Both the position numbers and the translations under genes were made by a program. From assembly GCF_025717555.1 (NCBI RefSeq), contig NZ_JAJIRP010000002.1, positions 372,001-436,000 on the forward strand: a DNA stretch of 64,000 nt, given 5' to 3'. Numbering within the stretch: position 1 is the first letter of the stretch; every line of letters starts with the position of its first letter. Source of the stretch: Paucibacter sp. B2R-40. GTDB lineage: Bacteria; Pseudomonadota; Gammaproteobacteria; Burkholderiales; Burkholderiaceae_C. This document shows, one piece after another, positions 25,531 to 34,799 of the stretch. Below the pieces are notes generated by a model. The model saw only the letters and a program-made list of their open reading frames with translations. It was not told the origin of the DNA and made no database searches.

Positions 25531-26904
25531 TTACATGATGCGGCGCGGATGCGCCATTGATTCATGCGCGGCGTGCAAGCGCCGCACCAGCACCTGGATG
25601 AAGCCCCGATCGAACCGGTGCTGACATTCGGGACTCAACATCCCCAGCGACTCGGGCGTGAACGAGATCGTGGTGCAGATCTCACTCACCATCACATCGG
25701 TGCTGTGCCTGCGCAGATCGGGGTTAGGCGCCAGATAAGCCATCTCGCCGACCGAAGTGCCTTGGCCCAGCGTGGCGACCTTATTGCCATCTCGGAACAC
25801 CTCGACCGCGCCCTGCGCAATGATGTGAAAGGTATTGCCCTCCTGGCCGCGCTTGTAGAGCGCATGCTCGGGCGGAAAACGCCGCCAGCGCCCCCGGTGC
25901 ACCACCTCCCACAGTTCCACATCACCAAAGTCGGCAAAAAATTCCAGCGCGCGCAGCATATTGAAACGCTCTGAATCCTTCACCTCATAGAGCCGGGCCA
26001 GCGGCACCAATTGCTTGGACACCAACTCCGACAGCGCGCGGCCAAACGCTTCCCAATCGGCATATCGGGCCTCGGGGTGCTTGGACAGCGCCTTCAATAT
26101 CACCGCATCCAGCTCGGCCGTGACGCCGCCGCGCAGCCCGATCAGCGAGGGCGGCGCCTGGTGATAAATCTGGTGCATCAAGGCCATCTGGCTGGGCGCA
26201 TCGAAGGGCGGGCGGCCCGCCACCAGGTGATAGAGCACGGCGCCCAGCGCATAGATATCGGCACGGCAATCGACGTCACCGCCCTCGATTTGCTCCGGCG
26301 GCATATAGGCCAGAGAACCCACGCGGTGCACTTGCGTCGAATCGGAATGCAGATTCAAGGCGCTGCCGAAATCACTGACTTTGACGTCAGTGACTTGCCC
26401 CGCAGCGTCCAGCACCGCCAAGAGATTGGCCGGTTTGACGTCGCGGTGAATCAGGCCTTGGCGGAACACATAGCTCAGCGCCATTGCGCACTTGAAGCCC
26501 AGCTCGACGATCTGGTCCAGCGGCAGCAGCCTGTCGCTGCGGCAAAAATGCTTCAGCGTCACGCCGGGCACAAACTCCATCACCAGATAGGGCGCGTCCT
26601 GCTCGGGCACGGCGTCGAGGATTTGCACCACGTTCGGGTGTTGAAGCCGCCCGGCCAGCGCAGCCTCGGCGGCATAGAAGTGAAAGCTGTAGTCACCCTG
26701 CTGGCCGGCGCGGCTTTGCGTAGCCCAGGAGCGCATGCGCTTGATCGCCACCTCGGCCTTGCGGAATTCATCGAAAGCCAGGAACACATCGCTGGTGGCG
26801 CCCTCACCCAGGCGGCGCGTGACCCTGTACTTGCCGATATAAACCGGCAAGTCGACGTTGGCCTCTAGGGGCAGATCAGGGTCCGTGGACATGCCTTCCA
26901 TCAT
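25531..26904 (-). CDS. Ser/Thr protein kinase with C-terminal cyclic-nucleotide-binding domain
   Basis: 457 residues. The Hanks-type kinase domain (about 24-290) has the glycine loop RLGEGATSDVFLAF, Lys55 in VAIKRM, Glu80, the catalytic loop LIHRDVKPANLL with Asp155, and the metal site SDFGSALN with Asp178. Residues 310-440 form a CRP-type cNMP-binding domain: FHIIAQGAVEVFRDGNKVAT and LGQGTSVGEMAYLAPNPD. No membrane helix is present, so the kinase is cytoplasmic and may be regulated by a nucleotide. The ATG at 26904 has GAGGG 7 nt upstream, and those bases lie in the left arm of the 26908-27178 repeat. The frame continues upstream, but that extension is antisense to argS. Confidence 0.93.
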   Translation of the reverse strand: MMEGMSTDPDLPLEANVDLPVYIGKYRVTRRLGEGATSDVFLAFDEFRKAEVAIKRMRSWATQSRAGQQGDYSFHFYAAEAALAGRLQHPNVVQILDAVPEQDAPYLVMEFVPGVTLKHFCRSDRLLPLDQIVELGFKCAMALSYVFRQGLIHRDVKPANLLAVLDAAGQVTDVKVSDFGSALNLHSDSTQVHRVGSLAYMPPEQIEGGDVDCRADIYALGAVLYHLVAGRPPFDAPSQMALMHQIYHQAPPSLIGLRGGVTAELDAVILKALSKHPEARYADWEAFGRALSELVSKQLVPLARLYEVKDSERFNMLRALEFFADFGDVELWEVVHRGRWRRFPPEHALYKRGQEGNTFHIIAQGAVEVFRDGNKVATLGQGTSVGEMAYLAPNPDLRRHSTDVMVSEICTTISFTPESLGMLSPECQHRFDRGFIQVLVRRLHAAHESMAHPRRIM

Positions 26905-26945
26905 ACTGGGACCCTCAGCAGAACCAAGCTGGGCCGCGGCGGGAT

Positions 26946-27030
26946 CTTTGCGGGATGTTGGCCAAGGCGCGGACCGCCGCCCAGACTCGTGTCTGGGCAA
27001 GGGTCGCAACGCCGGCCAGCGCCCGCAAAG
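26946..27030. repeat. First inner hairpin of the element
   Basis: CTTTGCGGG (26946-26954) pairs perfectly with CCCGCAAAG (27022-27030). TGGCC (26959-26963) pairs with GGCCA (27014-27018), GGCG with CGCC, and the tip is GCCCAGAC-TCGT-GTCTGGGC (26979-26998), a perfect 8-bp stem. Confidence 0.85.
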
Positions 27031-27044
27031 GCCCGCCCCGAAGG

Positions 27045-27148
27045 GTTTGCGAGATAACAGGCCCTCTCGGTCGTTGCAGTGCTCGGCAGTCGGGCATAGA
27101 GCCCGACCTTCGCACTGCGCCTGCGAGCCGGCCTGTTCTCTCGCAAAC
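27045..27148. repeat. Second inner hairpin of the element
   Basis: The 19-base arm at 27045-27063 (GTTTGCGAGATAACAGGCC) pairs with 27130-27148 with one mismatch. Then GCAGTGC (27076-27082) pairs with GCACTGC (27112-27118), and GTCGGGC (27089-27095) with GCCCGAC (27101-27107) around ATAGA. The base of this hairpin resembles the base of the first one (TTTGCG...GGCC), as if one arose from the other. Confidence 0.85.
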
Positions 27149-27198
27149 GCGACCCAGTTTGGTTCTGCTGAGGGTCCCCAGCCCCGTAGAATTGCCAA

Positions 27199-28908
27199 AT
27201 GATCCAAGCCAAGCAAGAACTGCTCGCCGCCCTGGGCGAAGCCATCCAGGAACTCAGCCCCGGCTCCGCGCTGCTGGCTGCCTTTGAATCGCCAAAGCAG
27301 GCCAGCCATGGCGACTTCGCCTGCACGGCCGCCATGCAGATGGCCAAGCCGCTCAAGAAGAACCCGCGCGAATTGGCGCAGGCACTGATTGATGCCTTGA
27401 ACAGCCGCCCGGCCTTTCAGCGCTGGGTGTCCAGCATGGAAATCGCCGGCCCCGGCTTTATCAATATCCGCCTGACCGACGCCGCCAAGCAGGCCGTCGT
27501 CGCCGAGGTCTTGAGCGCCGGCGCGGTCTTCGGCCAGCAGCCGGCCAATGAGCGCCACGTGATGGTGGAGTTCGTTTCGGCCAACCCGACCGGCCCGCTG
27601 CACGTCGGCCATGCCCGCCAGGCCGCCCTGGGCGACGCGCTGTGCAGCCTTTTCAAGACCCAAGGCTCGCAGGTCACACGCGAGTTCTATTACAACGACG
27701 CCGGCGTGCAAATCGCCACGCTGGCCAACTCCACCCAATGCCGCCTCAAGGGGCTCAAGCCCGGCGATGCCGGCTGGCCGGAGAGCGCCTACAACGGCGA
27801 CTACATCCAGGACATCGCCGACGCATTTCTGGCCAAGCAGACGGTGGTGGCAGATGACCGCCAGTTCACCGCCTCGGGCGACATCGAAGACCTGGACAGC
27901 ATCCGCCAGTTCGCCGTCGCCTACCTGCGCCACGAACAAGACCTGGACCTGCAGGCTTTCGGTTTGAAGTTCGACAGCTACTTCCTTGAGTCCGGCCTCT
28001 ATAGCAGCGGCCGCGTCGATGACACCATCGCCAAGCTGATGGCCAGCGGCAAGACCTTCGAAGAAGGCGGCGCGCTGTGGCTGCGCACCACCGATTACGG
28101 CGACGACAAAGACCGGGTGATGCGCAAATCTGAAGGCGGCTACACCTACTTCGTGCCTGATGTGGCTTATCACATCGACAAGTTCCAGCGTGGCTATACC
28201 AAGTGCATCAACATCCAGGGCACCGACCACCACGGCACGATTGCCCGTGTGCGCGGCGGCCTGCAAGCGGCCAATGTCGGCATCCCGCAGGGCTTCCCCG
28301 ACTACATTCTGCACAAGATGGTCACCGTGATGAAGGGCGGCGAGGAGGTCAAGATCTCCAAGCGGGCCGGCAGTTATGTGACGCTGCGCGATCTGGTCGA
28401 CTGGACCAGCCGCGACGCAGTGCGCTTCTTCCTGATCGGCCGCAAGGCGGATACCGAGTTCACCTTCGACGTCGATCTGGCCTTGAAGCAGAACGACGAA
28501 AACCCGGTCTTCTATGTGCAGTACGCCCATGCACGGATCTGCTCGGTGATTCGCAACTGGGTCGCGCGTGGCGGTGACGAGGCCACGCTGGGTCAAGCAG
28601 ACCTGAGCCTGCTGAGCGCGCCGACCGAAGCCGCCTTGATGCTCAAGCTGGCCGATTACCCGCGCATGCTGAGCAGCGCGGCCGAGTCGCTGGCGCCGCA
28701 CGATGTCGCTTTCTACCTGCGCGACCTCGCCGCTTGCTATCACAGTTACTATGCCGCCGAGCGGGTGCTGGACCAGACGCCGGCCTTGAGCCAGGCGCGT
28801 GCCGCCTTGCTGGCCGCCACCCGCCAGGTAATTGCCAACGCGCTGGACGTGTTGGGCGTCACCGCACCCACCACCATGAGCCGCGAAGCGATCGAGGAAG
28901 CCGCATGA
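27199..28908 (+). CDS. argS: Arginyl-tRNA synthetase
   Basis: 569 residues, class I synthetase that charges tRNA-Arg in the cytoplasm. The HIGH-type motif lies in [18 protein letters not shown]; the KMSKS position reads [16 protein letters not shown], as usual for ArgRS where the first Lys is often missing. The N-terminal Arg-tRNA synthetase domain (1-90) and C-terminal DALR anticodon-binding domain (450-569, ending REAIEEAA) are present. No clear Shine-Dalgarno precedes the ATG at 27199; the closest GAGGG (27170-27174) is 24 nt away in the right repeat arm. The stop overlaps the SPOR gene start (ATGA). Confidence 0.97.
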
Positions 28909-34126: not shown

Positions 34127-34636
34127 ATGTCCACTCTCAAATCGATCGCCTTGGCGAGCCTCATATGCCTGAGCCTCAACGCCTGCGTCAGCGTACCCAG
34201 CCCGCGCAGCGTCAGTCCCGGCATGAGTGCGGCCGCCGTGCTGGCGCAATATGGTCAGCCGGTGCAGATCTGGCCCGACTTGGACGGCAAGGGTGGCAAA
34301 ACGCTGGAATACTCGCAGCAACCGATGGGCCAAAGCGCCTTGATGATCCGCGTCGACGCCGCAGGCAAGGTCATCAGCATCGAGGACACGCTGCAGCCGG
34401 CTGTGCGGGCCCGTATCCAGCCCGGCTGGACGCCCGATCAGGTCAGCCGCCTGCTGGGCAAGGAACGCACGCGCGTCTTCTTCAGGTTCAGTGGCGAAGA
34501 GGTTTGGGACTGGACGGTGCCCGATGAAATAATGGGTCAGCGCCAGCGCTTCAATGTGCACTTCAAGGACGGCGTCGTGCTGCGCACCACCCACAGCATG
34601 ATCTTCGACGACGAACGCATATTCCCGGGTCGCTAG
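34127..34636 (+). CDS. Putative lipoprotein with BamE/SmpA-like fold
   Basis: 169 residues. The signal peptide ends in the lipobox LSLNAC, with Cys20 as lipidation site. Residues 30-165 hold two similar halves, each starting with a proline/glycine helix entry (SVSPGMSAAAVLAQYGQPV and IQPGWTPDQVSRLLGKERTR) and then two or three strands. That is the SmpA/BamE pattern, here apparently doubled. The function is unknown. ATG lies 14 nt after the rpoN stop with AAGGAG upstream, so it is co-transcribed with rpoN. Confidence 0.82.
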   Translation: MSTLKSIALASLICLSLNACVSVPSPRSVSPGMSAAAVLAQYGQPVQIWPDLDGKGGKTLEYSQQPMGQSALMIRVDAAGKVISIEDTLQPAVRARIQPGWTPDQVSRLLGKERTRVFFRFSGEEVWDWTVPDEIMGQRQRFNVHFKDGVVLRTTHSMIFDDERIFPGR

Positions 34637-34638
34637 GG

Positions 34639-34799
34639 AAGCCCTGCATAAATCGGGGTGAGCCGTGCAGTGCGGATCGGGATGGACTGCAAGGCGCTGT
34701 TTGAAGCCAATAGCCGTAGCTCTTGGCGAAAAGCGCAAGGCCGCAGGTCACCCGAGACCGCGTCAGCACGGACCGGCCTGATATGTGCAGAGCTGCCTT
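34639..34799. repeat. Long imperfect inverted repeat between convergent genes
   Basis: Arms at about 34640-34680 and 34756-34797 match in inverted order over roughly 22 of 30 positions near the ends (CTGCATAAATC against CTGCACATATC; CCGTGC in both). Inner segments such as GCCAA-N12-TTGGC pair again. It spans the whole gap between the lipoprotein stop and the thioesterase stop. It may be a decayed MITE-like element or a bidirectional terminator without T runs. Confidence 0.4.

Follow-up and report, generated by a model that had tools for sequence, protein, structure and literature searches.

What is the long palindrome that fills the gap between a Ser/Thr kinase gene and argS in Paucibacter sp. 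B2R-40, and does it serve either gene? In the window, by which we mean the whole stretch of 64,000 nucleotides that was analyzed, the two genes are divergently oriented. The kinase gene (25531..26892, minus strand) is recognized by PF00069 together with PF00027, the latter marking a C-terminal cyclic-nucleotide-binding domain, while argS, which codes for arginine--tRNA ligase (27199..28908, plus strand), is matched by TIGR00456 with 386.8 bits, above the cut-off. Between them lie two arms of 31 nt (26908-26938 and 27148-27178) with 94% complementarity, which form the longest inverted repeat of the window among the pairs listed (the best 25 of 50, with arms at most 300 nt apart). Either strand is predicted to fold into a three-way junction (-203 and -201.3 kcal/mol) with fold z-scores of -15.26 and -15.09, and none of the 200 shuffled versions folds as well. 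The palindrome at 26908-27178, with a three-way junction on either strand, that had been proposed in an initial sequence-only reading of this DNA is thus borne out.

The whole three-arm element (26908..27178) is assigned to the minus strand, following the orientation of the covariance model R1 (see below), in which hairpin B comes first; R1 matches 26907-27178 on the minus strand with 261 bits, and the plus strand also matches, with 127 bits. Read in this orientation, it consists of an arm of 30 nt, hairpin B of 104 nt, a mini-hairpin of 7 nt, hairpin A of 100 nt and a second arm of 30 nt. The inverted repeat and the fold together place the outer arms, termed P1 and given no strand, at 26908..26937, adjoining the kinase gene, and at 27149..27178, adjoining argS. 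Hairpin A (26938..27037) and hairpin B (27045..27148) are delimited by the lengths in the fold, and between them lies the mini-hairpin (27038..27044), whose two pairs are invariant in the 26 sequences aligned below; all three are listed on the minus strand. With its 271 nt, terminal inverted repeats and lack of a transposase gene the element has the make-up of a MITE. Its flanks (CT and CA) do not form a recognizable clean target duplication.

The second part of the question concerns the promoters, both of which had been supposed to lie inside the repeat. Genomes of the same genus offer a comparison, as argS was found in 17 of 18 of them; leaving aside L112, in which the gene start is missing, and the window itself, 15 relatives with readable upstream DNA are available, and the element is absent from the kinase-argS gap in all 15. 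A search with R1 of 42 loci (these 15 gaps and 27 chance BLAST loci; 151,504 bases) gave a best match of only 12.2 bits (E 0.28). In contrast, two short boxes are present in all 16 upstream sequences, window included. One is TAGAAT, 6-7 nt upstream of the argS ATG (in the window at 27187..27192, plus strand, 6 nt before the ATG), and the other is ATCATA, which reads TATGAT on the opposite strand and closely precedes the kinase start (26900..26905, minus strand). They resemble -10 boxes, and the one of argS would imply a leaderless start. The element lies between the two, 2 and 8 nt away from them. Given that both putative -10 boxes stand outside it and occur in all 15 relatives without it, the promoters are not inside the repeat; the -35 regions alone could fall within its arms.

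The boxes are 6 nt apart in five relatives and 15-25 nt apart in six, with spacings of 41, 42, 81 and 178 nt in the others (178 nt being that of L102) and 281 nt in the window. In the five relatives with the shortest spacing, among loci L096-L111, they form an interlocked divergent promoter pair, apparently leaderless on both sides. Hence, the simplest reading of these sequences is that the locus comprises two divergent promoters, in near overlap in most relatives, which probably give leaderless transcripts. The insertion next to argS would have separated these two close or nearly overlapping promoters, with arm sequence taking the place of both -35 regions. This bears on the suggestion that the element "has become the promoter", that is, that both genes are now driven from working promoters within it. 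The element does fill the region upstream of both -10 boxes almost up to their edges, and its arms may yet serve as -35 regions. However, both boxes lie beyond its ends and are found where it is absent, and there is no sigma-70 consensus pair within 26860-27230, arms included, so that exaptation of this kind appears unlikely. Since no -35 region was recognized, an effect of the element on expression is something that we only infer.

Two further proposals, concerning translation, stood in part. GAGGG, which had been taken as the Shine-Dalgarno sequence of the kinase gene and as supplied by the element, indeed lies 7 nt before an upstream in-frame kinase ATG in the window. In two of the 15 relatives (L110 and L111) this ATG and the one that follows it are in different frames; hence it is more likely to be part of the -10 box TATGAT than a start, which weakens the role given to GAGGG. 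The species of the window may possibly use it as a start. The observation that argS has no Shine-Dalgarno sequence was likewise correct, but this is the ancestral state, all 16 genomes having TAGAAT ahead of the ATG, rather than an effect of the element.

If the element does not belong to this gap, it might be expected elsewhere. Matches (E<=0.001) were recovered in five of the 18 genomes of the genus, its own included. In a sister genome, G008, 12 matching pieces are spread over 10 places and stand in either orientation, and the end motif occurs there 8 times forward and 8 times in reverse, against 0 for a reversed-pattern control. G001 has one copy, and G003 and G009 have shortened or diverged ones. 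The genome of the window has one full-length copy plus relatives of about 165 nt (five R1 matches, counting both strands). A second, shortened member of the family, 164 nt long, is found in the window itself (34635..34798, minus strand; R1 48.1 bits, E 1e-9) and folds as one long hairpin; further relatives of about 165 nt in this genome are at G000:C4:69324-69488 and G000:C12:22023-22187. Several dispersed copies are thus seen both in the sister genome and in the family at large, and the search for similar copies with conserved ends that the sequence-only reading had called for gave a positive answer.

Beyond the genus, a BLAST-type search of 399 genomes from the GTDB family, with two candidates scored per genome, recovered the element in 24, often via its core and with quite different arms. 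From 31 typed elements, 26 were aligned (L031, L038, L039, L062 and L070 being left out). The alignment has 85 consensus pairs, 70 of which change on both sides in a compensatory fashion; 92.8% of its cells are paired on the consensus structure, a value that falls to 32.7-43.6% if the partner is displaced by 1-3 columns, and none of 500 shuffles reaches the observed pairing. Because one set of sequences gave rise to both the alignment and the structure, checks that are free of the model weigh more. The 26 outer pairs match at 92.7% with the partner arm of the same element and at 36.9% with the arm of another. Furthermore, of 106 non-redundant elements, to which a set of 134 was reduced (with L293, L298 and L305 left out of loci L283-L308, their flanks being cut by a contig end), 105 adopt the common three-way junction when folded individually, the exception being L299, and 104 are 262-285 nt long, the remaining two having 343 and 344 nt.

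With the R1 covariance model, members turned up in 143 of the 250 GTDB-family genomes sampled, spread over 97 of 141 genera, and in 58 of 398 genomes of the phylum, in other families of the order, in other families of the class and also beyond the class; with 7 and 4 candidates scored per genome in the family and phylum samples, respectively, these counts are lower bounds. The matches number, for example, 99 in G205 and 73 in G314, figures that overstate the copies as both strands of one element are counted, and those listed for G205 occupy at least 37 different places (counted by eye). In a plasmid collection the window element and L228 found no match as queries, whereas L056 gave 1 record, L296 gave 4 and L291 gave 5. 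The plasmid BLAST matches come from Comamonas, Azotobacter, Pseudomonas and Halomonas, while Burkholderia has a short one that covers 25% of the query, and in the two plasmid regions inspected there is no annotation at the element. In one case (L327, 8550-8817 of a plasmid of Pseudomonas aeruginosa PA83 typed as conjugative), it lies between acyl-CoA dehydrogenase and CoA-transferase genes, with an IS1071 transposase nearby. Judged by these comparisons, the element of the window is a member of a widespread non-autonomous, MITE-like family of about 270 nt. A tally of the gene context of 80 elements (51 co-directional, 18 convergent, 10 divergent and 1 without a call) was discarded, as the GC3/ORF heuristic behind it extended open reading frames to the edges of the elements (median distance 2 nt).

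The similarity of the bases of the two large hairpins, pointed out in the sequence-only reading, proved to reflect a single module that is present twice in inverted orientation. It reads on the minus strand in hairpin B and on the plus strand in hairpin A. Its hallmark is an internal-loop motif, CAAGGCGC..CGC.G, then a variable apical hairpin, then CAAG..GCAACGC, which is a majority consensus and is weaker in B than in A. Its position within each of the two hairpins is constant, and this holds for the 22 elements of the phylum sample as well, including ones from outside the order. Owing to the inverted pair of modules, the element looks almost the same when its strands are exchanged, and R1 matches both strands in 68 of the 70 elements tested. 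Size variants exist, the smaller of which have the ends of the family. L262, with 158 nt between its ends, is a single long hairpin with one module, and other end pairs were found 170-180 nt apart. L273, L281 and L268 are palindromes of 44-51 nt that have IS5-type ends only and are flanked by CTAG-like sites. L042 (1499-1839), L224 and L225, with 341-344 nt, contain extra small hairpins; those of L042 separate its two large hairpins, and those of L224 and L225 lie within hairpin B. At L291, a cobalamin riboswitch match (RF00174, 40.1 bits; 1361-1523) abuts and slightly overlaps the element (1501-1767).

Does this fold act as RNA or as DNA? Under selection on a single RNA strand, G-U pairs would be expected to outnumber A-C mismatches on it. 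The mismatches in the stems, G-T versus A-C, number 46 and 59 in the outer arms, 24 and 20 in hairpin B and 29 and 26 in hairpin A. This lack of strand bias implies that the constraint, or the mutational process, is the same on both strands, and it suggests that the folded form is DNA and not a single strand of RNA. The symmetry likewise suggests that the fold acts as DNA, with the stems probably kept by template switching together with selection and the loops by selection. A structured RNA of argS or of the kinase gene, be it a leader, a riboswitch or a small RNA, would account for the very strong fold and for the covariation, and a leader had been among the initial suggestions. However, the element is missing beside argS in 15 relatives and its copies in G008 stand elsewhere in both orientations, which argues against an argS leader. 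Matches on both strands in nearly all elements and mismatches indifferent to strand are equally hard to reconcile with a transcript, and at the gathering score of Rfam there is no match at the element, either in the window or at 15 further loci. An RNA of these genes is therefore very improbable. The compensating changes that had been named as the sign of a functional RNA were found on a massive scale, but they belong to a mobile family and not to an RNA specific to argS.

How might such an element move? Its immediate surroundings were compared for 80 elements from eight genomes. In 38 of these TNA stands directly outside both ends, the middle base being identical in 27 of the 38 and complementary in 2, numbers in which there is a mild bias as the rule for TNA prefers the matching offset; the other 42 elements have no TNA pair under this rule. 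CTAG on both sides was seen in 8 of the 80. Target duplications of the kind expected for MITEs are thus recognizable at the level of the family.

The ends of some members, in turn, recur in insertion sequences from genomes of the same GTDB family. The GGGCCTGTTAACACTA class is common to L356, L358, L353 and L321 (identical or with at most two mismatches), the AGAGCGTGTTATG class to L338, L354 and L355, and the GGGAAACGCTGA class to L309 and L310. By NCBIfam models, the transposases of L356, L338 and L321 belong to the IS5 family in its NF033580 form (Pfam DUF4096 type), and those of L309 and L310 to its NF033581 form (DUF772 type). Hence, three end classes are shared with IS5-family insertion sequences, none of them being that of the window copy. 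Of 31 transposase loci inspected, 7 carry ends of the GGGCCTGTTAACACTA or AGAGCGTGTTATG class, and the rest have other ends or no convincing repeat. In the case of the GGGCCTGTTNACACTA class, a pattern search of 10 genomes, viewed by eye, gave no same-end pair of insertion-sequence size; an autonomous partner was found among the PF13340 loci and in L321, whose right end agrees approximately. No insertion sequence with the end type of the window copy, GGGACCCTC[AT]GCA, was found in the 18 genomes of the genus or in 9 element-bearing contig stretches, and PF13340 has no match in the genome of the window. The TNA and CTAG duplications, together with ends common to IS5-family insertion sequences, imply mobilization in trans. 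The option of a MITE-like element, raised in the sequence-only reading, was thus the right one, given the dispersed copies with conserved ends, the target duplications and the IS5-family ends, the last in end classes other than that of the window.

Some observations speak against a simple pairing of one insertion sequence with its MITE. An element and an insertion sequence with the same ends occur together in one genome only, G240 (GGGCCTGTTAACACTA class), all remaining matches of this sort being between genomes. Genomes rich in elements are often without the transposases tested (PF13340 in 1 of 8, PF01609 in 3 of 6), and PF13340 and the elements are not significantly associated (39/60 vs 104/190 genomes, p 0.18, the same 250 genomes being assumed). 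The elements seem to outlive the transposase that moved them. A different mobilizing enzyme, namely the REP-associated tyrosine transposase (RAYT), would come into question if the element were of the REPIN kind, as two hairpin modules in inverted orientation are also the plan of REPINs. However, REPIN/RAYT elements are not known to have a target duplication, and the 3-bp TNA duplications and IS5-family ends of the present family fit a DDE transposase instead. The modules are also of about 100 nt, as opposed to REPs, which are described as 20-40 bp (PMC3733652). A REPIN-like origin is accordingly very improbable.

The arms have a history that differs from that of the core. Among 1380 pairs of elements whose cores agree to 80% or more, 64 show no more than 62% agreement in either arm; here arms are compared counting from the junction, shuffled arms score 0.25, and both the alignment and the 62% cut are rough. 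In the clearest case, L064 and L059 have cores that are 97% identical and arms of 29-34 nt that differ to the eye on both sides (their two arm scores, 0.52 and 0.12, diverge despite the arms being complementary). Within a single genome, G164, cores about 90% alike bear two different IS5-type end classes (L217 and L220). Cores up to 97% identical with different pairs of arms indicate that cores change ends. On a smaller scale, the window copy differs from its sister copy L031 at 19 of 271 positions, and 12 of these differences fall into six arm pairs in which both bases are altered, the outcome being a Watson-Crick pair in five and G-T in one.

Such concerted changes could also come about with no function of the fold at all. 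The element would then be an ordinary MITE, whose stems are kept complementary by template switching and whose cores are alike through shared ancestry. Template switching has been reported to homogenize the arms of inverted repeats (PMC8604942) and, in E. coli, to act on quasipalindromes (PMC7202029), and the paired arm differences between the window copy and L031 as well as the mismatches without strand bias are what it could produce. The palindromes of 44-51 nt that consist of ends only are in line with this too, as they indicate that copies can do without the core. On the other hand, homogenization is expected to erase internal loops, yet the motif is fixed in both hairpins, and the length is held at 262-285 nt in 104 of the 106 non-redundant elements. 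On the whole we regard a functionless fold as conceivable, if somewhat doubtful.

Membership of the family, the plan of arms and hairpins, target duplications at other copies, IS5-family ends in some members and the insertion between the -10 boxes are all evident from the sequences compared. The feature of the window is, with good probability, an old insertion of non-autonomous mobile DNA that was served in trans by a transposase of the IS5 type and whose fold is kept as DNA. According to this model, the transposase would recognize the outer 16-20 bp or so and move the element. The inner part would be dispensable for recognition and might be kept because the element folds as DNA, either in the single-stranded state during replication or by forming a cruciform, and the conserved loops would be a putative binding site. 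Copying from arm to arm by template switching could maintain complementarity and would also let a core acquire new ends.

More tentatively, the core of about 210 nt with its two hairpins may be an ancient structured selfish DNA across the sampled Pseudomonadota, which has persisted by exchanging the transposase ends around it and whose loops serve as a recognition site; we hold this to be somewhat less than an even chance. Two routes to new ends can be envisaged. In the first, an end newly gained on one arm would be copied onto the opposite arm by template switching, while in the second the core would enter short palindromes that already bear ends. The conserved loops might then be recognized on the folded DNA by a factor of the host or of transposition.

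Mobile DNA without genes that keeps an elaborate fold, and little sequence beyond its loops, over a sample of a whole phylum is unusual. If the fold is selected as DNA, the family would offer a clean system for asking what recognizes folded DNA in transposition or replication, and also how non-autonomous elements survive the loss of their transposase. The R1 model, for its part, offers an annotation for many blank intergenic gaps. At the argS locus an apparent regulatory RNA becomes an insertion that separates two close divergent promoters.

We recognized no description of a three-arm family of this type in the literature, as represented by open-licence full texts. MITEs are usually regarded as short-lived offspring of one insertion sequence. 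In kind the present element is ordinary, a non-autonomous element with IS5-type relatives, while its three-arm plan, its inverted module and its change of ends are unusual. REPINs and BIMEs, which are associated with RAYTs, are likewise larger palindromes that enclose two hairpin modules, one inverted relative to the other, and in this respect they resemble the three-arm family, which is set apart by its target duplications, IS5-type ends and modules of about 100 nt. The TIMEs, miniature elements derived from Tn3 (PMC4133298), are similarly non-autonomous and moved in trans; they have ends of the Tn3 type, and the available part of their description mentions no conserved three-arm core. There is a further likeness in make-up to the R0 and R2 repeats of Pseudomonas fluorescens SBW25 (PMC2718517), MITEs of 89 and 110 bp that are short, gene-less, intergenic and multi-copy and that form hairpins, the stem being made of the inverted repeats and the loop of a variable core. 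Their inverted repeats are identical to those flanking two insertion sequences of SBW25. In contrast to R0 and R2 as described there, the three-arm family has a two-hairpin core with a conserved module that is kept over the phylum sample, while its ends vary between groups of the IS5 family.
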